Assembly: GCA_019801415.1 (NCBI GenBank)
Contig: JAHVJD010000002.1
Coordinates: 186,001-250,000, forward strand
DNA: 64,000 bases
Reading direction: 5' to 3'
Origin: Nocardioides marinus
GTDB lineage: Bacteria > Pseudomonadota > Alphaproteobacteria > Rhodobacterales > Rhodobacteraceae
A program made the translations under genes and the position numbers. The notes under the pieces were generated by a model. That model did not search any database. It was given only the letters and a program-made list of their open reading frames with translations, and was not told where the DNA came from. Below are positions 14,985-56,304 of the stretch, piece by piece (within the stretch, counting starts at the first letter, position 1; each line of letters starts with the position of its first letter).

Positions 14985-15187
14985 GCGTGCAAGGCATCCA
15001 GCCGTCGCGCAACAGTGAAGGCTCCAAGTCCGCTCCCCCAGATACAGCCAGACGCCGAGCCGACGCGACGGTTGCTTTCGGCTGAGCGAAATGCAGTGCG
15101 CAAACCCGCGCGTCCGCCATTGGCGTGACAAAGCACGAAGGCATGACAAGGCACGAAACGCACAAGCGCCCCTCGCGCGAAAGAAAT

Positions 15188-15259
15188 TCCCTTTAAAATC
15201 AGTGGTGCGGACGGCGGGACTCGAACCCGCACGGCCATAAGGCCAGGAGATTTTAAGTT
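15188..15259. repeat. attL: 72-bp direct repeat of attR
   Basis: Identical to 56203-56274 from TTCCCTTTAAAATCAGTGG through AGGAGATTTTAAGT. The sequence diverges right after the anticodon-loop region on one side and 16 bases beyond the tRNA 3' end on the other. It marks the left prophage boundary. Confidence 0.95.
15204..15259 (-). pseudogene. 3' fragment of tRNA-Leu(UAA) left by integration
   Basis: This is the CCA end, acceptor 3' strand, T-arm, variable arm and anticodon 3' half of the tRNA-Leu found intact at 56219-56304. The D-arm and 5' acceptor strand are missing here; the sequence changes after the anticodon loop. It is the displaced bacterial copy. Confidence 0.93.
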
Positions 15260-16325: not shown

Positions 16326-19300
16326 GTGAGCAATAAAGTTGATCGACGGATCCTTCAGGATGAGCCATCCGAAAAAGACCTTTTCAATGGAGGTGGGCAC
16401 GAACGAACTGCTCATTCTCTGTCCAAAGCAATTGTAAGGTTTGATAGCGGTGATAGCGCAATTGGGCTCGAGGGCTCATGGGGAAGCGGGAAGTCCAGTG
16501 TCGTCGAAATGGCGAAGAGAAAACTCTCCGAGAAGAATGGGAAGGGAAAGAAGACCTACAACTTCTTTACTTTCGACATATGGAAATCTCAGGGTTCAGA
16601 TTTCCGCCGGTCGTTCTTGGAGCATTTTTTGAACTGGGCACAAATGACTTTTCCAAAGAAACGTCATGAATTGGCTGCTATTGAAGCTCAGATTCAAGGA
16701 AAGACACGAGAGATACAAACAAACAACCAGCCGATACTAGACTGGTATGGAATTACAGTTCTCGTTTTTCTTCCCTTCCTCCCGCTTTATTACTTTTGGG
16801 CGAAGACTGTCTTCGATGAAGCTGCCAAGGCAGGGAGTGCCGGAGACTTTCTTTGCTCGACACCCTTTCTGCTGTTGCTTGCATTTGTCATTGCAACCCT
16901 TGCACTCGCGGGCTGCAAGTTCAGGTCTGCTCGAGCCAAGGATCCGAAAACAGATTTTAAAGCTGTCATCTCTAGATTGCTCCTTATAAGATCGCGACAG
17001 CATCAAGACCACAAAGTTGTTCAGAAGGTTCGGGAAATTGACCCAAATGATTACGAGTTTCATTCTACGTTGCGAGAAATCCTTGGTGTTGTTCAGTCGG
17101 AACACGAAAGAGTCGTTGTCGTCCTAGACAACATCGACAGATTGCCTGGAAAAGAAATAAGGGATTATTGGGCACTAGTAAGATCAATTTTTGCGCGAGC
17201 GCATGGGGAAATAATACAAGGCGCACATACTGAGATCACAGCAATTGTTCCCTATGATCGAAAGTTGATTGAGGCAAACGTAACAACTGATGAAGACGAA
17301 GAAACAGGTCGCAACGACATAAGCTGCCTTGCCTCAAGAGAACTGTTTTCAAAAACATTCTCAGAGATTCTTTCGGTCTCTCCGCCTGTTCTCTCCAACG
17401 CACGCGAATTCTTCGCTGACAGGTTGGAAGAAGCGCTGCCCAAGCAGGTTTCCGCAGATGACAGGTTTCGCACCTACCGTATTTTCTGCGAACTACTCAA
17501 AACCCAAGGTGGAACAACAACGCCGCGAAACATCGTTTCTTTCGTTAACAACTTGAGCAGCTTGTATGAGTTGCACAACGGAAAGTTTCGTCTTCCAACG
17601 GTTGCTGCTTACATTGCCCACCAGGACCGCATCAGAGACAAGCCATCAGTTTTGAACGAGAAAACCGGTCTGGACCCCAGAATTTCTGCTCTATCAGGCG
17701 ATAGTAAACTTACAAAAAATCTAGCAGCTATGGTCTTCAATGTTGAAGAAGACCTTGCGTTTCAGATCTTGCTCGATGATGAAATTGCTGAAGCCATTCT
17801 TAGCCCAAGCCCAGACCGCATTCTTGCTCTATCTTCAGCTCCTGGCTTCGACGACCGCGTCGACGATGTTGTCCAGGCGAATGTCGATGAATGGCGCAGC
17901 ACGGGAGACCTTGGCACCGCAATCAGAAACATTTCCGAGTTGCATGAGAACTATGAAGGTGACGCAAAGAAACACCTAGCGAGCACAGTGCTCCGGGCGT
18001 TCTCAAAAGTGGAAACTCTTCCAATCAAGGGTGAAGGTTACGTTGAACATCTGCCGATTTTCTCGCTAGCTACTGAAAGTCAGCTACCGGAAACTGTGGA
18101 TTACTTCGTGAATGCGGTGCTGGCAGGTGTGCACCAGCAAGAGAAGTACACATTTCAAGATGGTAAGGCCTTTTCCTCTTTTCTGGTCGCAGTTGCCGAG
18201 GCTCTGGAGAAGCATGGCGGAGCAGAGGCCCTGAACATTGCCTTGGGTGAGCAAACACTGCCAACCGCGCCGGAGTATATGTTTGGCCTAGCAGCGACTA
18301 TTGCAACCACGGGGTTCGACTTAAGCTCCTTTTCCTCGGCAGAGATCGCGCTCGATGAGGATCTTAAGTATTTAGAAGAACAGTTCGTCAAATACCCTGG
18401 GCTGGCAATTCCAGCCCTTGAACAGTTCACTTCAAACGACCTCTTGCCCGACCAAGAGCTCGTGAGCATCGCGAATGCCGCTCTGTCCGCTCTCAAAACA
18501 GGTGAAGTTCCACCGGGGAACGCCAGTGCGTTGCTAGAAATAGCCGCCATAACTTGGCAGTCGGTTGACGAAAGTAAACGAGCAGAAATACTGCTGGCGA
18601 ACGCCACGACTGAAGGGCAGTTCTTTAGAAATATTGGTGACGGCTCAACCGTAGAGAGTCAGACAGCCCAGGCGAATTTGCTGTTTTTGGCTCAGGAGCA
18701 ACTTGGAAAAGGTCTTTCAACCCCAACAAAGTTGAATCCAAATAATACCCGCGCACCTGACCCTTCGGATGGCTTCAGCCGTTTCAAGGATTTGTTAGAT
18801 GGTTCGGGAGAACTCTTAGATAGCCAAGTAGAATTGGTAGCACACAAGGCAGTCGCAGCACGTGGTGCAACCCGCTGGATTGTGTATGGCAAGGCTAATC
18901 GGGAGCATTCGGCAGTCGCACAAATTGTCGTCGAGATGTTTAGCCGTGCGACACCTCCCTACCTCACTCTGCAAGGTTTGACCTCGCATTTCCCTTATCT
19001 GCGCGATCTACTCGAAGAAGATGTTTTGGTCGGCGCACTGGGGAAATATGCTCCTAGGATGGACGTCTCAGAGATTAAAAAGCTAACGCTTGATGATATA
19101 CCCCGCGGCTTTCTATCTCTTTCACATGCTACGGGTGGTCTATGGAACCCCCTGCATGAACACGTCGGTGACCTTTTGAGTTCAGTCGAACAACAGGCTT
19201 GGCCAGATCACATTAGTGAGATGGATCACACGGCATTGGTTCTTCTCGAAAAACTAGATTCCTCGGGCTGCCAACTTGATGCAGGCGTATTCAGAAAGCC

Positions 19301-19811
19301 GTTCGTCCACATTGTAAAACACGTCTTGTCTGGAGAGAGTGAAATTGAGGCTGCCGATGGTGCCTTGGATGCACTGTTGCGCGCTCTAGATAAAAGCTAT
19401 CACGAGGACGTTTGGCGCTCTCTTCGTGAAGGAATCTCCAACGTTTCCGCGACATCTTTGGGTCATGCTATGCAGCTATGTCCCGAGCTGATCTCAAACG
19501 TAGCACAACGTGGAGATCGAATAATGAAGGCCGAGAAGGACAATGTCCTGCGCCATATCCTTGTTCCTGCGCTGGAAGGAAGACAAAGTGACGCTCTTCG
19601 GATTTTCGTTGGTATGGGTTACTCGAAGCTGAAGGACTTCCAGAACGCGGCCCAAGACAGCACCACGGCTATGGTTGAGGGCGCGTGGAAAAGCTTTTCC
19701 AATGCAAACGTGGATAGAAACCTGATGCGCGACCTTAGCGAGGTCTTGTTTGGAAAGCGAAAAGCGAAGTCAATTTTGGACCCCAGCTTTTGGCTTTCAT
19801 TGCCAAAGTAA
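16326..19811 (+). CDS. KAP-type membrane P-loop NTPase, candidate phage-exclusion protein
   Basis: This 1161-residue protein starts at GTG behind GAAGGTGG. The N-terminus has Walker A (GSWGSGKSS, residues 50-58). Two hydrophobic segments at about 140-160 and 176-197 are inserted between Walker A and Walker B (RVVVVLDNID, about 262-271), the arrangement that defines KAP NTPases. The remaining ~700 residues are helical and repeat-like without a known motif. KAP proteins include PifA of the F plasmid, which excludes phage T7. A large KAP gene at the att-proximal cargo position of a prophage therefore suggests superinfection defence, but that is inference. Base use is visibly more AT-rich than the phage core. 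Confidence 0.85.
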   Translation: MSNKVDRRILQDEPSEKDLFNGGGHERTAHSLSKAIVRFDSGDSAIGLEGSWGSGKSSVVEMAKRKLSEKNGKGKKTYNFFTFDIWKSQGSDFRRSFLEHFLNWAQMTFPKKRHELAAIEAQIQGKTREIQTNNQPILDWYGITVLVFLPFLPLYYFWAKTVFDEAAKAGSAGDFLCSTPFLLLLAFVIATLALAGCKFRSARAKDPKTDFKAVISRLLLIRSRQHQDHKVVQKVREIDPNDYEFHSTLREILGVVQSEHERVVVVLDNIDRLPGKEIRDYWALVRSIFARAHGEIIQGAHTEITAIVPYDRKLIEANVTTDEDEETGRNDISCLASRELFSKTFSEILSVSPPVLSNAREFFADRLEEALPKQVSADDRFRTYRIFCELLKTQGGTTTPRNIVSFVNNLSSLYELHNGKFRLPTVAAYIAHQDRIRDKPSVLNEKTGLDPRISALSGDSKLTKNLAAMVFNVEEDLAFQILLDDEIAEAILSPSPDRILALSSAPGFDDRVDDVVQANVDEWRSTGDLGTAIRNISELHENYEGDAKKHLASTVLRAFSKVETLPIKGEGYVEHLPIFSLATESQLPETVDYFVNAVLAGVHQQEKYTFQDGKAFSSFLVAVAEALEKHGGAEALNIALGEQTLPTAPEYMFGLAATIATTGFDLSSFSSAEIALDEDLKYLEEQFVKYPGLAIPALEQFTSNDLLPDQELVSIANAALSALKTGEVPPGNASALLEIAAITWQSVDESKRAEILLANATTEGQFFRNIGDGSTVESQTAQANLLFLAQEQLGKGLSTPTKLNPNNTRAPDPSDGFSRFKDLLDGSGELLDSQVELVAHKAVAARGATRWIVYGKANREHSAVAQIVVEMFSRATPPYLTLQGLTSHFPYLRDLLEEDVLVGALGKYAPRMDVSEIKKLTLDDIPRGFLSLSHATGGLWNPLHEHVGDLLSSVEQQAWPDHISEMDHTALVLLEKLDSSGCQLDAGVFRKPFVHIVKHVLSGESEIEAADGALDALLRALDKSYHEDVWRSLREGISNVSATSLGHAMQLCPELISNVAQRGDRIMKAEKDNVLRHILVPALEGRQSDALRIFVGMGYSKLKDFQNAAQDSTTAMVEGAWKSFSNANVDRNLMRDLSEVLFGKRKAKSILDPSFWLSLPK

Positions 19812-20806: not shown

Positions 20807-21691
20807 TTAACTCGTAAGGTCTACGTTGTGTAGTGACCGATCAGGATACTTCCTCTGCCAGGTTTCAAGTAAAAACAGCGCTGTTGTGCTCGCGGTATGG
20901 ACCGCAAACCGCGCAATCCTTACGTCAATGCGCGCAAAGCCTCTTTCTCTGCCGTGGGCATCGCCTGCATGTGTTCGTAGGGCGCCGACACCGCTTATTA
21001 CGCTAGACAGACCTGAAAGTATTTGACGGACGTCATTCGCAATTTGTGGGTCTATGTCGGTTCTACCTGCTGAAAGACCAAGAGGATCTTTCACGGCATT
21101 ATACAGACCTTGAATGTCCTTCTTGGCCGGTAATGGTATATCAAGCTCGACTAAGATGGATCTGCAGACACTTTCCAATGTGCTGCAAGCAGAGGTAACG
21201 GCTCCTTCTGGATCTAGGCTCAAGCTCTCAAGCGCCCGTTCCAAGTCTCTACGAACTGTGTCAAAGTCCACTTCTTCTGCTAGTCCTGCAAGATCAGATA
21301 AAACCGGGGTATCCTTTCCCGCTTGGACCAAACGGACGCGTGTACCTAACGATTGAAGCTCGTAGCCATCAAAGGACAAGGCGCGGTTCAGATACGTAAC
21401 AACCTCTTGATGACGATCTGGATCTTTCATGAAGTCCCTGGGATCAGCAGCACTTTCAACTATCCTCGTCATTACATCTGCTGCTTCACTGCTGGTGTTC
21501 TGTCGATTCAGACAATCAATCAAACTCGGCACACGAGACCCTTCAACCTTGAAGCTAACGTTGTTCCGCCTCATGAACTGCTCAAGCTTGGTTCCGCTAC
21601 GATAGATACCAATGGGTGGGTCCGGGTCCATGCCACCACCACCGCTGATAATTTCTGCGAGTGCATCAATGCTCTGAGGAGATAAAAACAC
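20807..21691 (-). CDS. abortive infection protein with Abi_C domain
   Basis: This 294-residue protein has a C-terminal half (about 160-280) matching the abortive-infection C-terminal (Abi_C) pattern. SACSTLESVCRSIL is followed by a helical stretch and the block GVGALRTHAGDAHGRE, with Arg239 and His246 arranged like a HEPN-type R-x6-H motif. The N-terminal part is not recognised. Abi_C proteins are linked with phage exclusion in lactococci and occur in many defence islands. The start codon is GTG with only a weak ribosome site. It is one of two unrelated exclusion-type genes in this cargo zone. Confidence 0.78.
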   Translation of the reverse strand: MFLSPQSIDALAEIISGGGGMDPDPPIGIYRSGTKLEQFMRRNNVSFKVEGSRVPSLIDCLNRQNTSSEAADVMTRIVESAADPRDFMKDPDRHQEVVTYLNRALSFDGYELQSLGTRVRLVQAGKDTPVLSDLAGLAEEVDFDTVRRDLERALESLSLDPEGAVTSACSTLESVCRSILVELDIPLPAKKDIQGLYNAVKDPLGLSAGRTDIDPQIANDVRQILSGLSSVISGVGALRTHAGDAHGRERGFARIDVRIARFAVHTASTTALFLLETWQRKYPDRSLHNVDLTS

Positions 21692-22770: not shown

Positions 22771-25700
22771 TCAAGTGAACAGGAAATTATCCGCGTCACT
22801 CAATTCAGCGATTGTCGTATTCTCAACCAACACTGTGGTGGAGGCAAATGTGAACACAACATCATCACCAGATTGCGAGAACGTGATTTGCTCCAGAGAC
22901 TTAGCCCCCAAAGTGATTTCGATTAAATCGCTTCCCTGGTCGAAGTCTGCGATCGTGTCATTTCCATGATTGCGACCGAAGACGAAGGTGTCCGCACCAA
23001 ATCCTCCAGTGAGTAAGTCATCTCCATGCCCACCCTTGAGTGTGTCGTGCCCGCTCCCTCCAGAGAGTTCATCGTGGTCACGACGCCCGAAGAGCCGATC
23101 CGCGCCATATCCGCCTTTGAGAGTGTCGTTACCTTTTCCTCCGAAGAGGTTATCACTCTCTCTCCCACCGGAAAGAAGGTCGTCACCTCGCCCACCATGT
23201 AGGTCATCCGAGCCTGTGTTGCCCTTAAGCGTGTCGCCCCCCCAGCCCCCAACGATTCTGTCATCACCGTCGCGGCCAGCAAGGAAGTCATCGCCGTAGC
23301 GCCCGCGCATTTCATCACTATTTGTGGTGTCAATTTGGTGAAAGTCACCGTATCGAACTGAAGAGGTAGCTACGCTGTAAACATGTTCAGCAGTATCCTC
23401 TCCATCAACAAAGCTAGCGACCACGGTGATTTCCGCATCGACATCATCCAAGGTCAACGTGAAGGTATCGCCCGTGGCCCCGGCAATATCCACACCGTCC
23501 CGCTGCCACTGATAGACGACAGTTCCGAGCCCGTCTTCATCCGAAAGCGTGTGCGAAGCAGTCAGAGTGTGCCCATGCTTTACGTTTCCGGAGATGGTCA
23601 CGCTGCCCGTGGGATCATCATTAACGTTGGCCACAGCCGCGGTCGCGGTACTGACGACGCTTTCGGCAGTCCCTTCGTCATCGGTGTAGCTGGCAGTCAC
23701 CGTGATCGCCGCGCCAACATCATCCTGCGTCAGCGTGTAGCTGCTGCCGGTCGCGCCAGCAATATCGACGCCTCCGCGCTGCCACTGGTAGGTAACCGTG
23801 CCCAGGCCGTCTTCATCGGCCAGCGTGTGGCTTGCGGTCAGCGTCTGGTCCTCGGCCACGGTGCCCGAGATCGTCACGCTGCCGGTAGGATCATCATTGA
23901 CGTTGGCCACAGCCGCGGTTGCGGTGCTGACGACGCTTTCGGCCGTCCCTTCATCGTCGGTGTAGCTGGCGACCACCGTGATCACGGCCCCGACATCATC
24001 CTGCGTCAGCGTGTAGGTGCCGCCGGTCGCGCCAGCGATATCGACGCCACCGCGCTGCCACTGATAGGTGACCGTGCCCAGGCCGTCTTCATCGGCCAGC
24101 GTGTGGCTGGCTGTCAGCGTCTGGTCCTCGGCCACGGTGCCGGAGATCGTCACGCTGCCCGTGGGATCATCGTTGACGTTGGCCACAGCCGCGGTCGCGG
24201 TGCTGACAACGCTTTCGGCAGTCCCTTCATCATCGGTATAGCTGGCGGTCACCGTGATCACGGCCCCGACATCATCCTGCGTCAGCGTGTAGCTGCTGCC
24301 GGTCGCGCCAGCAATATCGACGCCTCCGCGCTGCCACTGGTAGGTAACCGTGCCCAGGCCGTCTTCATCGGCCAGCGTGTGGCTGGCTGTCAGTGTCTGG
24401 TCTTCGGCCACGGTGCCGGAGATCGTCACGCTGCCCGTGGGATCATCGTTGACGTTGGCCACAGCCGCGGTCGCGGTGCTGACAACGCTTTCGGCAGTCC
24501 CTTCGTCATCGGTGTAGCTGGCAGTCACCGTGATCGCCGCGCCAACGTCGTCCTGTGTCAGCGTGTAGCTGCTGCCGGTCGCGCCAGCGATATCGACGCC
24601 ACCGCGCTGCCACTGATAGGTGACCGTGCCCAGGCCGTCTTCATCGGCCAGCGTGTGGCTGGCTGTCAGCGTCTGGTCCTCGGCCACGGTGCCGGAGATC
24701 GTCACGCTGCCGGTAGGATCATCATTGACGTTGGTCACGGTGGAGGTGGCGGAGCTAGTGGCGCTTTCATCAAATCCACCGCCATCGGTGTAGCTGGCAG
24801 TGACGGTGATTTCCGCGCCAACGTCGCCCTGTGTCAGCACGTAGGTGCTGCCGGTCGCGCCCGCGATGTCGGCGCCGTCGCGATGCCACTGGTAGGTGAC
24901 GGTGCCGATGCCGTCCTCGTCTGCCAGCGTATTACTAGCGGTCAGGGTCTGGTCTTCGGCCGCGGTGCCTGAGATGGTGACCCCCCCTGTCGGGGCCGTA
25001 TTGTAGACGGCAATCTTGCCATAGACCCCATCGCTATGTCCATCCTGCCAATTAGATGTCCAGGTGAAGGCCAGGGATCCATCAGTCAATTGCGCCACCG
25101 CAGGTCGGTCCTGCGAATTGCTCGTGGAGCTGTTGATCAGCTCTTCCCCGCCCACCGGGGTTCCGTCACTGGCAAATCGCTGAGCAAATATACCGTCGGA
25201 ATGCGCATCTGCCCCCGAGCTATCGGTCCAGACCACAACAAACCCGCCATCATCAAGGCCGGTAACATGCGGCTCAGATTGATTATCGGTCGTGGTGGTA
25301 TTCACCAGAATTTCAGTTCCGACCGCTGCGCCGGCGCTGTCATACCGCTGCGCGACGACTCCATAGCTCGAACCATCCTGTTGCCAGGATTCCCAAACGA
25401 CAACGAACCCGCCATCTGAGAGAGCTGCAACGGATGAATCTTCTTGATTGGCGTTTGTTGTGGTATTGACTTGGAATTCGTTTCCCACCGTTGCGCCGCT
25501 ACTGTCATAGCGCTGTGCAAAAACGCCGGTGACGCTCCCATCCTGATAAAAGGACGTCCAAGTGACGACAAAACCGCCGCCAGCCAAGGCTGTAACGTCG
25601 CTCTCTTGTTGGGTATAGGCCGTCATAGTATTGACCCGGAATTCGCCGTTGATGGCAGACCCATCCGCGGCATACATCTGACCATAGACCCCGTACGCGT

Positions 25701-26175
25701 CGCCATCATGAAAGTCGGACGTCCAAGTCACGACAAAACCGCCGCCGTCCAATCCGGTTATCGAAGGTGTTAATTGGTAGAACAATGCCTCAGTGTTTAC
25801 TTGGAATTCAGTATCTACGACCGTTCCACCGCCGTCATACCGCTGCGCAAAGACCCCGTACCCGTCACCATCCTGACCTCGGCTATCCCAAGCGATGACG
25901 AAGCCCCCATCAGCAAGAGCGCTGACAACCGCGTTCGCCTGGTCGTGGATAACTTCCGTGTTGACCCTGAATTCGGCCCCCTGCCTGACGCCATCGCTGT
26001 CGTACCTTTGGGCGTAGACGCCGGTACCGACTCCATCCTGGCTATCTGACGTCCAGGTTACGACATAGCCACCGCCGGACAGTGCAGCGATGCTAGGGGC
26101 GTTCTGATCGTCGTATGTATGTGTATTGACCAGAAATTCGGGCACGATTTCAATAAGGGTGGGGGAAGCGGGCAT
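22771..26175 (-). CDS. secreted RTX mosaic protein with propeller-like and Ig-like repeats
   Basis: This 1134-residue protein has three repeat zones. Residues about 13-400 hold seven ~55-residue units of the form EFxVNT-Q-ALxDGGFVVxW-QDG-GVxAQRYD, a number that suits a seven-bladed propeller. Residues about 400-945 hold six 92-residue Ig-like units (GSVTISGTVAEDQTLTASHT), four of them nearly identical. Residues about 955-1075 hold RTX nonapeptides (GGxGxDxLxG), then FVFGRNHGNDTIADFDQ and a C-terminal region typical of type I secretion substrates. It is probably exported by a T1SS encoded elsewhere and folds with calcium outside the cell. No transporter gene is nearby. Its place in a prophage suggests lysogenic conversion or acquired cargo. 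Confidence 0.88.
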   Translation of the reverse strand: MPASPTLIEIVPEFLVNTHTYDDQNAPSIAALSGGGYVVTWTSDSQDGVGTGVYAQRYDSDGVRQGAEFRVNTEVIHDQANAVVSALADGGFVIAWDSRGQDGDGYGVFAQRYDGGGTVVDTEFQVNTEALFYQLTPSITGLDGGGFVVTWTSDFHDGDAYGVYGQMYAADGSAINGEFRVNTMTAYTQQESDVTALAGGGFVVTWTSFYQDGSVTGVFAQRYDSSGATVGNEFQVNTTTNANQEDSSVAALSDGGFVVVWESWQQDGSSYGVVAQRYDSAGAAVGTEILVNTTTTDNQSEPHVTGLDDGGFVVVWTDSSGADAHSDGIFAQRFASDGTPVGGEELINSSTSNSQDRPAVAQLTDGSLAFTWTSNWQDGHSDGVYGKIAVYNTAPTGGVTISGTAAEDQTLTASNTLADEDGIGTVTYQWHRDGADIAGATGSTYVLTQGDVGAEITVTASYTDGGGFDESATSSATSTVTNVNDDPTGSVTISGTVAEDQTLTASHTLADEDGLGTVTYQWQRGGVDIAGATGSSYTLTQDDVGAAITVTASYTDDEGTAESVVSTATAAVANVNDDPTGSVTISGTVAEDQTLTASHTLADEDGLGTVTYQWQRGGVDIAGATGSSYTLTQDDVGAVITVTASYTDDEGTAESVVSTATAAVANVNDDPTGSVTISGTVAEDQTLTASHTLADEDGLGTVTYQWQRGGVDIAGATGGTYTLTQDDVGAVITVVASYTDDEGTAESVVSTATAAVANVNDDPTGSVTISGTVAEDQTLTASHTLADEDGLGTVTYQWQRGGVDIAGATGSSYTLTQDDVGAAITVTASYTDDEGTAESVVSTATAAVANVNDDPTGSVTISGNVKHGHTLTASHTLSDEDGLGTVVYQWQRDGVDIAGATGDTFTLTLDDVDAEITVVASFVDGEDTAEHVYSVATSSVRYGDFHQIDTTNSDEMRGRYGDDFLAGRDGDDRIVGGWGGDTLKGNTGSDDLHGGRGDDLLSGGRESDNLFGGKGNDTLKGGYGADRLFGRRDHDELSGGSGHDTLKGGHGDDLLTGGFGADTFVFGRNHGNDTIADFDQGSDLIEITLGAKSLEQITFSQSGDDVVFTFASTTVLVENTTIAELSDADNFLFT
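23605..24710 (-). repeat. four near-identical 276-bp tandem units within RTX gene
   Basis: The DNA coding Ig-like units 2-5 repeats with a period of 276 bp (92 codons). Adjacent units differ at a few synonymous or conservative sites only, whereas units 1 and 6 outside this span are clearly diverged. This pattern suggests recent duplication or gene conversion and could cause assembly collapse or copy-number variation. Confidence 0.9.
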
Positions 26176-50138: not shown

Positions 50139-50344
50139 GCAGCAACCTCGCCATTCTCTGGCGGAGGATTGGCAGCGATATAGCGGCGGATCTTGTCGAC
50201 AGTGTGGAGCGTCGGACTAGATTGCCCTTCCTTCCATGCCTGCCACTGGCTCCAATTCGCGCCGATCGCTTGGCGCAGCACATGCTGTGGGCTCCGTCCG
50301 ACAGCCTCGGCATAAGCCGCCATCTCTTCCAGAAACTGTTCCAT
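50135..50344 (-). CDS. Cro-like HTH regulator
   Basis: This 69-residue protein has one HTH unit, YAEAVGRSPQHVLRQAIGAN, with WSQWQAWKEGQSSPTLHTVDKI as recognition and following helix. It is divergent from the CI-like gene and starts 11 bases from operator O1, the place of Cro. Its own ribosome site (AGAAGGGGG) lies between operator and ATG. It begins the long minus-strand lytic transcript. Confidence 0.8.
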   Translation of the reverse strand: MEQFLEEMAAYAEAVGRSPQHVLRQAIGANWSQWQAWKEGQSSPTLHTVDKIRRYIAANPPPENGEVAA

Positions 50345-50354
50345 GCCCCCTTCT

Positions 50355-50428
50355 GGGGTTTTTTTACCCCATAGGTCAAGGGTATTTTTACTCCATGCGC
50401 TATTCCCTTAACTGGGGTAATTTACCCC
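50355..50428. promoter_or_regulatory. three-operator switch between cro-like and cI-like genes
   Basis: Three palindromes lie at 50355-50370 (GGGGTTTTTTTACCCC), 50379-50394 (AGGGTATTTTTACTCC) and 50414-50428 (GGGGTAATTTACCCC). They share the form of the two sites near 53.8 kb. Centre spacings are about 24 and 34.5 bp. A TTGACC hexamer on the minus strand at 50374-50379 may be the -35 element for the cro-side promoter. Confidence 0.88.
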
Positions 50429-50430
50429 GT

Positions 50431-51066
50431 ATGCAACAAACGTTCCGAGACGCATTCATTGCGGCGATACAAACAACAGGCAAATCTATGCGTCAGGTCG
50501 CTCGCGACGCGGGTGTGTCCTATGAACAGCTGAAAAACCTTGCCCAAGGTAAGGCCAAGTCGACCAACGTTGATGACGCTGTACGCATCGCCGCATCGTT
50601 CGGCACGACCCTTGAAGGTTTTTTGCAGGGCCAAACGGAGGCTCCGCCAGTTCCAACCATAGCGATAGCAGGGAAAGTCGGCGCGGGCGCACAGGTTCCG
50701 GTGTTTGACGCCTATGAAAAAGGCGGGGGACCTCAGGTGAAATGCCCACCTGGCCTATCGCCACACGGCATCGTCGCCGTCGAAGTAGAAGGTGACAGCA
50801 TGGAGCCGGTCTATTCAGCCGGAGATCTTCTATTCTACACCCGCAATGGGCACGATGCAGTTGCTTTTGAAGACGTCGGCCACCGCTGCGTATGCGAGGA
50901 TGAGGACGGTATGGGTTGGGTGAAGCAAGTGAAGGCCGGAGACGAACCCGGCCTGTTTCACTTGATCAGCTTGAATCCCGGAGCAAATAACATCTGGAAC
51001 GTTCGCCTAAAATGGGCTGCACGTGTTAGACTGCATTGGCCTGCTGACCTGGCACAAAAGGTATGA
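50431..51066 (+). CDS. CI-type repressor with S24 (LexA-like) autopeptidase domain
   Basis: This 211-residue protein has an N-terminal HTH (about 18-50; MRQVARDAGVSYEQLKNLAQG), a linker, a cleavage-type Ala80-Gly81 in IAIAGKVGAG, and a C-terminal S24 domain with Ser123 in VEGDSMEPVYSAGD and a Lys near 165 (GWVKQVKAGD). It should keep lysogeny and be inactivated by RecA-stimulated self-cleavage. The ATG at 50431 directly abuts operator O3 and has no ribosome site, so a leaderless message is possible; an ATG at 50395 would add 12 residues. Confidence 0.9.
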   Translation: MQQTFRDAFIAAIQTTGKSMRQVARDAGVSYEQLKNLAQGKAKSTNVDDAVRIAASFGTTLEGFLQGQTEAPPVPTIAIAGKVGAGAQVPVFDAYEKGGGPQVKCPPGLSPHGIVAVEVEGDSMEPVYSAGDLLFYTRNGHDAVAFEDVGHRCVCEDEDGMGWVKQVKAGDEPGLFHLISLNPGANNIWNVRLKWAARVRLHWPADLAQKV

Positions 51067-51374
51067 TCCTGTCACTTTTCACCTCCTGCGAGCTTTCATC
51101 AGGGCGCTACCACAGCAGCATTGCGCACTGCTCCTCCTACACCGCGTATCGATAGATCAAAACATTAAGACCCTCCAGGCGGGTACAGACCCAAAACTTG
51201 TGTGCAATGAGCTTACCCTGGGCACCACACGATTTTAGGAAGTCACCACGCCACTCGATGTTGAGTCGTCTGCCTCGCTGCTATACTCATCCATGGACAA
51301 CCGGCAACTCTATGACAGCACGCACTGGGACGGTTAAACTAGGTAAAAACAAGCTATTGCGAAGAAGTTTTTAA
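51067..51374. other. intergenic region between repressor and ParB-like gene
   Basis: These 308 bases mark a change to more AT-rich sequence. They should hold the promoter for the ParB-like/Dam pair. AAGAAG lies just before the next ATG. No further gene, operator copy or strong hairpin is seen; a 71-codon open frame (51023-51238) overlaps the repressor gene and is not called. Confidence 0.45.
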
Positions 51375-52823
51375 ATGCCTGAAGAAAAGAAAGTTTACTT
51401 AAATCGACTAATCCTTCATGAAGACAACCCTCGCTTTGAAGGTGTCCTCAACGAAGAGAGAGCCATAAACGCGCTGTGCAGCTCGGAGAAAATCTTGGAG
51501 CTGGCAAAAGATATCGCCGAAAATGGACTATCGCCGCTGGAACGCTTCATGGTGTTTCAAGAAGACCCAGAGGACCCCCCTGAAGAAGCGAACTATGTCG
51601 TTGCGGAGGGCAACCGGCGCCTCTGCGCCCTTAAGCTTTTAAAAGACCCCAAACGCGCTCCGGCGACGATGAGAGAGGCGTTTCAGCGAGCTTCAAAAGG
51701 CTTCAGAGCACCACGGACCATTTCTGTTGTAATCGAAGAAGATGAAGGAGAAAGGCGAAAGTGGATCGAACGTGCACACGCTGGGACTATGGAGGGCAAA
51801 GGCCGAAAGGCTTGGAACACCACCCAAAAAACCCGCTTCTTCCAGAACCCTCGCAACCTACGCGGCCAAGCTTTAATGGACTATGCAGTGGCACGAGGCT
51901 TCATTTCAAAAGAAGAAACTTTCGGGAGATTATCCCACGTAGTTAGGCTCGTAGGAAACCCTGTAATGCGGGCAGCTATCGGCCTTAGCACTGGCAGCGA
52001 CCCTACTGAACTATTCCGCAACCGCCCCGCAGAAGACTTTGACAAATTTCTCGTTTGGCTGCTGGATGAGGCACTTAACAAGCGGTTGGGATCCCAGGTC
52101 CTAAAGCGCGACATAGAGCAAAAGGCAAACTCTCTCGAAGCGGAATTGGGGTGCTCGCACGTGCGCCTGCCGGAGCCCGTTAGCCTATCAGAAGATCTCA
52201 AGCCGGACAAAGCAGGTTTCACCAGTCAGGCTTCCTCCCGAAGTCAGGAACAAGCCGCACGCGGCTCCATTAGTACTACTTCGATGAACTCCGCCGTCAG
52301 CGGCAGCTCCCATCAGGCCGATGTAAGCGGTGGTGACGCGACAAGCGATCCTGAGGTGAAAACTTCTGAATCCGTCAACATACCGAAGAAGCCTAAGCTT
52401 CCCAAAACCTCAAAGGTTATGCCATACTCGGAAGAAGTAGCCGATCTTCTCGAGCAACTTGGAAACTACAAACTTTCCTCTCTACTGTACTCCATCTCAT
52501 CCATTCCGGTGAAAGAGCATGTTCCAGCATTGTACGTGACCGCATGGTCATTTTTAGATAGCTTTTCAGTCGCGATGGGGAGAAAATCCGACGGAAATAT
52601 ATCTCAATTCTGGCAGGCTAAGTTTCTTAGACAAGATCCATATAATTTTAGCCGCGATGAAGCCAATGCAATCTCTCACGCCGTTGATCAAATTCGATCG
52701 CTTGGCAACACCACGAAACACCATCCCAATGCAGCAGGATTCGATGGCCAACAGTTAAAAAATGATTGGCAGCTCATTTTACCAATCATCGAACTCGCAC
52801 TCCGAAAGCACCTTAAAAAATGA
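51375..52823 (+). CDS. ParB/Srx-like N-terminal domain protein with C-terminal helical domain
   Basis: This 482-residue protein has YLNRLILHEDNPRF near residue 8 and VVAEGNRRLCALKLL at about 76-90, with E78-G79-N80-R81-R82 resembling the ParB CTP/nuclease-type motif. Residues about 290-360 are low-complexity Ser/Asp linker. The C-terminal helical domain (about 370-482) ends with IRSLGNTTKHHPN, where Arg441 and His449 are loosely HEPN-like. Its stop overlaps the Dam methylase start by ATGA, so the two are coupled. It is AT-richer than the phage core and may be accessory defence or modification cargo. Confidence 0.75.
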   Translation: MPEEKKVYLNRLILHEDNPRFEGVLNEERAINALCSSEKILELAKDIAENGLSPLERFMVFQEDPEDPPEEANYVVAEGNRRLCALKLLKDPKRAPATMREAFQRASKGFRAPRTISVVIEEDEGERRKWIERAHAGTMEGKGRKAWNTTQKTRFFQNPRNLRGQALMDYAVARGFISKEETFGRLSHVVRLVGNPVMRAAIGLSTGSDPTELFRNRPAEDFDKFLVWLLDEALNKRLGSQVLKRDIEQKANSLEAELGCSHVRLPEPVSLSEDLKPDKAGFTSQASSRSQEQAARGSISTTSMNSAVSGSSHQADVSGGDATSDPEVKTSESVNIPKKPKLPKTSKVMPYSEEVADLLEQLGNYKLSSLLYSISSIPVKEHVPALYVTAWSFLDSFSVAMGRKSDGNISQFWQAKFLRQDPYNFSRDEANAISHAVDQIRSLGNTTKHHPNAAGFDGQQLKNDWQLILPIIELALRKHLKK

Positions 52824-53683
52824 CACGATCAGCTTCGCCCCTCCGCTACCCAGGTGGTAAAGCCTGCTTGTACGAAGCAATGAAGAACATCATTGTTGAA
52901 AACGGTCTAACACATCGTACTTATGCGGAACCGTATGCCGGCGGTTGTGGCTTGGCTCTTGCTCTCCTGTTCAACGGGGTCGTTAGAGAAATTCACATCA
53001 ACGACTTGGATGCCTCAATCTGGTCTTTTTGGCACTCCGTACTTGAACACACTGACGATCTTGTAGAAATGATCCGCAATGCGGAATTAACCATAGACGA
53101 ATGGAAAAAGCAGCGAGCAATTTATCGAGAACAAAAAGTTTCCGACCCCCTGCGACTAGGTTTCGCAACATTCTACCTCAACCGCACGAACCGTTCGGGG
53201 ATCATTGCCCAAGGAGGTGTCATTGGCGGACTGTCGCAGAAAGGAAGCTACTTGATGGATTGCAGATTCAACAAGGTAAATCTTGTTGAAAGGATTGAAC
53301 GAATCGCCTCCTATAAAGACGAAATCCACCTATACCGACTAGATGCTTTGGATTTCATCACGCAGGCGCCTAAGATTTTGCCGCGAAAAAGCCTCCTTTG
53401 CGTAGACCCACCATACTTCAATAAAGGCTCGCAGCTTTACACAAGCTTCTACCGGCCGGAGGACCATGCAGCGCTTGCGAAAGTGATACAAAGACTAAAG
53501 CTTCCCTGGGTTGTCACCTACGACAACGCAGAGGAAATCCGCAATCTTTATGCAAAGTCGCACTTGCACAGCTTTGACCTCCAGTACTCCGTGCAAACCA
53601 AACGACTAGGTAACGAACTACTAATATCCCCTCCGCATGTAAGCTTGCCGACAATTTGGGCGGAAAAACGCATCGCCGCGTGA
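52820..53683 (+). CDS. D12-class (Dam-type) adenine-N6 DNA methyltransferase
   Basis: This 287-residue enzyme has LRYPGGKACLYEAM at the start, AdoMet motif EPYAGGCGLAL at about 37-47, NRTNRSGIIAQGG at 121-133 and catalytic DPPY at 196-199 (CVDPPYFNKG). This is the full D12 order. The target sequence cannot be read. No restriction endonuclease follows. It is translationally coupled with the ParB-like gene and shares its AT-rich base use. Confidence 0.92.
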   Translation: MTRSASPLRYPGGKACLYEAMKNIIVENGLTHRTYAEPYAGGCGLALALLFNGVVREIHINDLDASIWSFWHSVLEHTDDLVEMIRNAELTIDEWKKQRAIYREQKVSDPLRLGFATFYLNRTNRSGIIAQGGVIGGLSQKGSYLMDCRFNKVNLVERIERIASYKDEIHLYRLDALDFITQAPKILPRKSLLCVDPPYFNKGSQLYTSFYRPEDHAALAKVIQRLKLPWVVTYDNAEEIRNLYAKSHLHSFDLQYSVQTKRLGNELLISPPHVSLPTIWAEKRIAA

Positions 53684-54855: not shown

Positions 54856-55065
54856 ATGGCAACCATTCAACCTGCGGCCCTGCGTGAAGCCAATGCTGCT
54901 GCCTTTTTGGATCTTTCGGTGACGAAGTTCCGCTCCCTGGTCAAACACGGCGCCCTGCCCGGTCCAGTCCGACTGGCGGACGGCGTGGAGCGTTGGCGGG
55001 CCGACGATTTGCGCGCCATACTCAGCGGCACGGCCGCACGACCATCAGAGGACTTTGAGCTTTGA
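54856..55065 (+). CDS. AlpA/Xis-like HTH protein, candidate excisionase
   Basis: This 69-residue protein has NAAAFLDLSVTKFRSLVKHG followed by LPGPVRLADGVERWRADDLRAIL, the MerR/AlpA-type winged-helix pattern of small excisionases. GAGGATG lies before the ATG. It overlaps the integrase start by 4 bases (TTGA), so the two are translationally coupled and would direct excision together. Confidence 0.82.
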   Translation: MATIQPAALREANAAAFLDLSVTKFRSLVKHGALPGPVRLADGVERWRADDLRAILSGTAARPSEDFEL

Positions 55066-56108
55066 AGAAGCCTCCCAAGCCCAGGATCACCAAGCCGAAC
55101 CTTGCCTGGAAGTGGAACGGTCGCCGCGGCATTTGGGAACCTTACCACCGGGTCACCTGGACGGAAGGCGGCAAGCGTCGCGAGCGAGCGGTGAAACTGG
55201 ATTGGCAAGGGGATGCGGAACGCCTGGACGTGCTCTATTGGGAGTGCGCTGCAGGTAAACACCAGCGTCAGAAGGTCCAAGCACAGTATACTTGGCGCGC
55301 CCTCATCGAGGCCTGGCGAAAAGACCCTCGCATCCAAGGCAAACTCTCGGACGGGACCAAAAAGACTTACCGGCGAGACATGGAGGGCATTCTCGAAAAG
55401 AACGCCGACAAGGATGTCCGGCGCACCTCCAAGGCAGCGGTGCGTGCGGCCCACGCCAAGCTCGCAGACACCCCGCGCAAGGCCGATCGCTACCTGCAGA
55501 CGATCAGCCTGCTGTGGAACTATGGCGCGAACAAGCTGGACTGGCCGCTCGGAGACAATCCAACGAAGGGCGTGGATCACTACGGCAAGCAGCGGGAATA
55601 CGAACCGTGGCCGCAATGGATAGTCGATAAGCTGGACGAAGCGCCTGAGGATGTGCGCGCCGCGGCAACGCTGATCCTGAACACCGGCCAACGCCCGAAC
55701 GCTGCAATCTCGATGCGGTTCTCGGACTTTGACGGCGAATGGATGAGCGTCCTGGACGAAAAGAACGACGAACGGATGGAGGTCTACTGCCCCCAGGAAT
55801 TGCGGAACTTCATCGCCGCAGCGCCACGCAAGGGAGCCTATGTGCTAGCGAAGAACCTCACTCAGCCGCGCGGCTACTGGGCCTTGTCCAAGGCCTTTCG
55901 GGAGTGGCGCGCCAGCCTCGGACCCAAGGCCGAGAAGTACGTGCTGCACGGTCTTCGCAAGCTCGCGATCATCCGCCTTGCCGAGGCCGGATGCAGTGAT
56001 GCCGAGATCCAGGCAGTGACAAACCAGAGCGCCGAAATGGTCGCCTACTACCGCGCTCGCGCAAGCCGAAAGGCCCTGTCACGCTCCGCTCAACTGCGCC
56101 GAAAATAG
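55062..56108 (+). CDS. tyrosine integrase
   Basis: This 348-residue protein has a basic N-terminal arm-binding part, a core-binding helical section at about 75-175 and a catalytic domain. Catalytic residues are Arg211 ([13 protein letters not shown]), His296-x-x-Arg299 ([15 protein letters not shown]) and a Tyr at 329/330 (MVAYYRAR). The usual His before the Tyr box is replaced in AVTNQSAEM. The start is TTG, overlapping the Xis stop. It lies 94 bases before attR and targets the tRNA-Leu gene. Confidence 0.92.
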
Positions 56109-56202: not shown

Positions 56203-56274
56203 TTCCCTTTAAAATCAGTGGTGCGGACGGCGGGACTCGAACCCGCACGGCCATAAGGCCAGGAGATTTTAAGT
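56203..56274. repeat. attR: 72-bp direct repeat of attL
   Basis: Identical to 15188-15259. It includes 16 bases beyond the tRNA 3' end, the CCA, T-arm, variable arm and the anticodon loop region. It restores the 3' part of the tRNA gene from phage DNA. Confidence 0.95.
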
Positions 56275-56304
56275 CTCCGGTGTCTACCATTCCACCACGT
56301 CCGC
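56219..56304 (-). tRNA. tRNA-Leu(UAA), prophage target
   Basis: The 86-base gene folds as a class II tRNA. The acceptor is GCGGACG with CGTCCGC, the anticodon stem is GGAGA with TCTCC around CTTAAAA (anticodon TAA), the long variable arm has GGCC/GGCC pairing, and the T-arm contains GGTTCGAGTCC. CCA is encoded. The 3' part lies in attR, so the gene remains intact after integration. Confidence 0.97.

Follow-up and report, generated by a model that had tools for sequence, protein, structure and literature searches.

A probable PD-lambda-5 anti-phage system carried as cargo by an alphaproteobacterial prophage

A functional selection in E. coli uncovered the anti-phage system PD-lambda-5, and this E. 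coli system is the only one for which protection against phages has been shown (PMC9519451). Vassallo et al. 2022 labelled it as an RM+Abi system and not as a plain RM system (PMC9519451). In a survey of Actinobacteria, PD-Lambda-5 is one of the systems that prophages encode most often (PMC10482375). In the literature we found no demonstration of methylation-based discrimination for any PD-lambda-5 member. Mrr attacks some methylated DNA. Taken together with the mrr-deleted host that Vassallo et al. 2022 used for PD-lambda-5 (PMC9519451), this suggests that the PD-lambda-5 methylase is active. The 2013 HEPN survey of Anantharaman et al. had described ParB-HEPN fusions as well as operons in which HEPN genes stand together with genes for ParB and a DNA methylase (PMC3710099). 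This is the same domain combination as in the gene pair reported here, and we therefore count the pair as a known kind.

Our analysis suggests that the pair is almost certainly a PD-lambda-5 anti-phage system. It lies in the window, i.e. the whole stretch of 64,000 nucleotides that was analysed, and consists of two intact frames on the plus strand, gene A (51375..52823, 482 aa) and gene B (52820..53683, 287 aa), which have the ATGA at 52820-52823 in common. The initial annotation had given the pair the same coordinates and the same overlap. The PADLOC profile PDLC04000 (PD-Lambda-5_A) matches A with E = 3.6e-150 over residues 3-479, covering positions 4-424 of the 428 in the profile, and PDLC04018 (PD-Lambda-5_B) matches B with E = 1.5e-120 over residues 1-280. 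Hence the pair resembles the system of Vassallo et al. in the near full-length match of both proteins, in the order A then B and in its prophage location. It differs in its alphaproteobacterial host, the long Ser-rich linker in A and the 4-base overlap, the comparison being made via the profiles. Searches of A against Pfam and NCBIfam gave no useful name, and the A profile found no match among PDB sequences. The modification-linked defence module that the initial annotation had proposed for this prophage was thus right in outline, and it corresponds to PD-lambda-5 (PMC9519451). An anti-restriction role, offered there as an alternative, is rejected, as we found nothing in its favour and the pair can be explained without it.

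The pair is a further copy of a known defence system and leaves the known range of defence-system kinds unchanged. Its value is that of a well-bounded alphaproteobacterial prophage copy of a broad-range system. We estimate a probability of about 0.78 for the whole explanation, in which PD-lambda-5 would be prophage cargo with B marking self DNA and A acting on unmarked phage DNA.

Protein B is, judging from its profile match and motifs, a D12 class N6-adenine DNA methyltransferase. Its match to the Pfam family PF02086 (D12) has E = 1.6e-15 and 57.9 bits against a cut-off of 22, and the diagnostic motifs LRYPGGK, EPYAGG and DPPY (residues 196-199) are all there, so that the earlier call of a D12 methylase holds. 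DPPY and the SAM-binding PGGK are invariant in 10 homologues.

The N-terminal part of A is predicted to have a ParB/Srx fold. We modelled the structure of A from an alignment of 38 sequences, with a mean pLDDT of 86. Residues 1-157 (51375..51845, plus strand) match ParB of M. xanthus in VIA (7bnr_A with Z 9.9, rmsd 11.3 and 137 aligned residues; 7bnk_A with Z 9.8, rmsd 2.3 and 95 aligned residues), and sulfiredoxin (Srx) and SbnI structures are also among the matches of this domain. The residues E78, G79, N80, R81 and R82 are each found in 38/38 homologues. The ParB/Srx-like N-terminus of the initial annotation is therefore borne out, and the E78/R81 region to which it had pointed falls into this invariant box with its GxRR signature. 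Canonical ParB domains were not recognized: A has no Pfam match up to E = 1, ParB_N is absent from the Pfam matches of the 38 homologues, and a one-to-one profile comparison of A with ParB gave E = 4.5e-4 at a probability of 33%. Foldseek with the A model found no match at E below 0.001. A middle helical domain follows at about residues 158-263 (51846..52163, plus strand). In VIA, residues 1-263 can be superposed on the ParB-type protein KorB 8qa9_B together with its DNA-binding domain (Z 8.8, rmsd 5.4, 178 aligned), a weak indication that the middle domain might stand where ParB proteins have their DNA-binding domain. Residues 283-336 (52221..52382, plus strand) form a linker that is predicted to be disordered (pLDDT under 50) and is gapped in most of the eight A homologues aligned. 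It had been described as Ser/Asp-rich; the serine part is right (15 in 54 residues), but there are only 3 Asp.

The C-terminal domain of A (residues 345-482, 52407..52820, plus strand) is predicted to have a HEPN-like four-helix fold. This agrees with the helical domain seen in the initial annotation. Modelled alone the domain has a pLDDT of 92.8, and nearly all of the best 25 VIA rows are HEPN proteins, led by 7ae6_B (Z 8.5, rmsd 3.5, 113 aligned) and including 2hsb (Z 8.4, rmsd 3.5, 113 aligned) and AbiA 8oz7_B (Z 8.4, rmsd 3.8, 114 aligned). Z scores in the range 8-10 count as moderate, especially for helical bundles, and the HEPN rows stand above those of vinculin and fumarase (Z under 6). 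With this domain, too, Foldseek found nothing at E below 0.001. The comparisons of its profile with HepT, DUF4145 and Abi_C were not significant, DUF4145 being represented by two usable sequences only. The same profile alignments place the motif GNxTKH (residues 444-449) on RNxxxH of HepT and on GNxAxH of DUF4145.

The conserved motif of this domain is not the usual one of HEPN proteins. G444, T447, K448 and H449 are found in 38/38 homologues and N445 in 36/38, while none of the positions H-5 to H-7, where the arginine of an R-x4-6-H motif would stand, has a conserved arginine in these homologues, H-5 being a glycine. The R-x7-H pattern noted earlier is literally present (R441-x7-H449), but it is not conserved, since R441 (H-8) occurs in 6/38 only. 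A canonical HEPN RNase acting via R-x7-H is rejected for this reason. R439 (H-10) is found in 32/38 homologues, but the window copy has Q439. The missing R-x4-6-H, together with the non-significant profile comparison with HEPN families, makes an RNase activity of A doubtful. The entries in the 2013 survey mostly keep R-x4-6-H, unlike A of the window, although other arginine-less HEPN families exist, e.g. c2405, with 'conserved H but lacks R' (PMC3710099). The C-terminal motif differs in other branches of PD-Lambda-5, where a conserved histidine stands in surroundings that resemble LGxxxHG. The invariant GNxTKH in an arginine-less HEPN-like domain gives a lead on the way in which PD-lambda-5 distinguishes self DNA from that of phages.

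The same motif bears on whether A could simply be an endonuclease. In a plain restriction-modification system A would cut unmethylated DNA by its ParB/Srx-like domain, and the HEPN-like domain would serve structure or dimerisation only. The loss of the usual arginine and the constant pairing with a methylase fit such a system, and ParB/Srx proteins with DNA-nicking activity have been reported in work cited in PMC12839542. However, the invariance of the C-terminal G, T, K and H in 38/38 homologues exceeds what a purely structural domain would need, and the label given by Vassallo et al. is RM+Abi. We hold a plain restriction-modification system to be unlikely, though a serious candidate.

Proteins A and B travel together. 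Homologues in viral and genome contigs were found by alignment-based scans, whereas the A sequence by itself gave nothing there. B adjoins A in 89 of the 95 distinct close A homologues, on the same strand in 81 cases and convergently in 8; the remaining 6 are mostly shortened A frames or lie at contig ends. Over 79 pairs, the pairwise distances of A and B are correlated with r = 0.85, the greatest value in 1000 permutations being 0.13. The absence of an endonuclease partner claimed in the initial annotation is thus a misreading, A being the regular partner of the methylase.

Such tight coupling could also be that of a toxin-antitoxin-like guard. B, or the methylation made by it, would then silence A; once a phage blocked or diluted the methylation, A would be freed as a toxin that kills the cell. 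Besides the overlapping genes, the toxin-like HEPN fold of A and the RM+Abi label of Vassallo et al. are in line with this idea. We looked for toxicity data on A and found none, which speaks against it. Antitoxin genes often come first in their operons, whereas here A is the first gene. We consider the guard quite unlikely.

The closest relative of the pair is found in Thalassovita aquimarina (L112, the same as L005), with A 63% and B 75% identical and the same 4-base overlap; its A has both R439 and R441, in contrast to Q439 in the window copy. Paracoccus phage vB_PkoS_Pkon1 (MK291442, L001) encodes in p76-p75 a homologue of A (36% identity over 99%) and then, with an 8-base overlap, the methylase. 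These genes are annotated merely as a hypothetical protein and an adenine methyltransferase, and the long linker of the window's A is absent. A Kosakonia plasmid also carries the pair. When we searched at the DNA level for the E. coli original via the Kosakonia pair, we found only methylases paired with ATPase or nuclease genes.

Related loci combine similar parts in other ways. In the E. coli P2-like phage vB_EcoM-12474III (L192, 4974-8010) an A-related ParB-like N-terminus occurs with a DNA methylase nearby. The locus has three genes, namely a short ParB-like protein, a 330-aa unknown protein and, convergent on the opposite strand, a C5 cytosine methylase. Layouts of this kind recur with D12 methylases instead (gaps of ~1025 bases). 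In two E. coli loci (L194, 3930-6579, and L195, 3924-6636) a B-related D12 methylase is paired with a gene for an ATP-dependent nuclease or an AAA ATPase. Here a marker of the same kind may work with an effector other than the ParB-HEPN protein.

In the mechanism that we propose, B would mark self DNA, and A would act on unmarked DNA or shut the cell down; we give this even odds. B would methylate adenines at a short DNA motif in the DNA of the host and the prophage, and A would read DNA through its ParB-like part. On unmethylated phage DNA A might activate its HEPN-like domain, probably against RNA, or cut or nick the DNA itself, or do both. Restriction and abortive infection would thus act together and protect both the lysogen and the prophage that resides in it. 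The A-like protein with a cytosine methylase in L192 and the D12 methylases with an ATPase or nuclease in L194 and L195 fit the marking role of the methylase, and the change of methylase type between related loci is a second lead on self versus phage discrimination in PD-lambda-5. More speculatively, A could be a ParB-type DNA clamp under the control of methylation. It would load on phage DNA that is not methylated and turn on a HEPN domain in which, the arginine being absent, G-N-x-T-K-H forms a new active site. Although this version is improbable, it would, if true, be a sensing principle new to restriction systems. The exact residues pinpointed by our analysis are E78/R81, K448/H449 and DPPY.

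The pair sits on the lysogeny side of its prophage. The prophage is 41 kb long and bounded by a perfect 72-bp repeat (15187..15258, identical to 56203..56274) of the 3' part of the tRNA-Leu(UAA) gene, the right copy lying within that part of the gene (56219-56304, minus strand). The genes for terminase, portal, major head, head-tail adaptor and tape measure are all on the minus strand, as are the small genes that lie immediately upstream of the repressor. The repressor itself is S24-type (CI-like), precedes the pair on the plus strand (50290..51066), and matches PF00717 with E = 3.6e-8 and the PHROG repressor with E = 2.5e-17. Small genes and the tyrosine integrase (55062..56108, PF00589, E = 3e-7) follow 3' of the pair on the same plus strand. 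Repressor, pair and integrase are all on this strand, the pair being flanked by the repressor on one side and by the integration genes on the other. The initial annotation had placed it between the repressor and the early operon; the repressor side stands, but the other side is the integration module. Expression of the pair in lysogens is plausible from this position beside the repressor on its strand, and the one promoter-like site upstream of the pair (51312-51340) is at chance level.

The site of the pair looks like a variable cargo slot, since in the prophages of relatives with a homologous repressor (~60-70% identical) differing, unrelated genes come next (L308, L309 and L313). For example, an unrelated AT-richer protein of 242 aa directly follows the homologous repressor in L308 (1200-1928). 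We looked for an empty site of the same phage and found none. As noticed earlier, the pair is AT-richer than the phage core. The G+C is 0.502 in A and 0.486 in B, whereas the prophage at 28-50 kb has 0.65. The ParB fold beside a repressor and the Dam-like methylase (TIGR00571, below the cut-off) could also make a phage module for gene control or DNA segregation with no role in defence. This is very improbable because the match to an experimentally validated defence system is full-length (PMC9519451), homologues are also found on plasmids, and other genes fill the place after the repressor in relatives, as expected for cargo.

Three other genes lie within the bounds of the same prophage. Near the left attachment site an AT-rich gene (16326-19811, plus strand) encodes a KAP-family P-loop NTPase of 1161 aa (PF07693, E = 4.4e-19). 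It matches a PifA/QatA profile weakly and is likely to be more defence-type cargo. A 294-aa protein (20807-21691, minus strand) with an Abi_C domain (PF14355, E = 7.9e-20) and an AbiJ profile match (E = 8.3e-18) is a candidate second abortive-infection system. A 1134-aa protein (22771-26175, minus strand) with repeated domains and RTX calcium-binding repeats (PF00353) may be an unusual cargo or a tail-associated protein.
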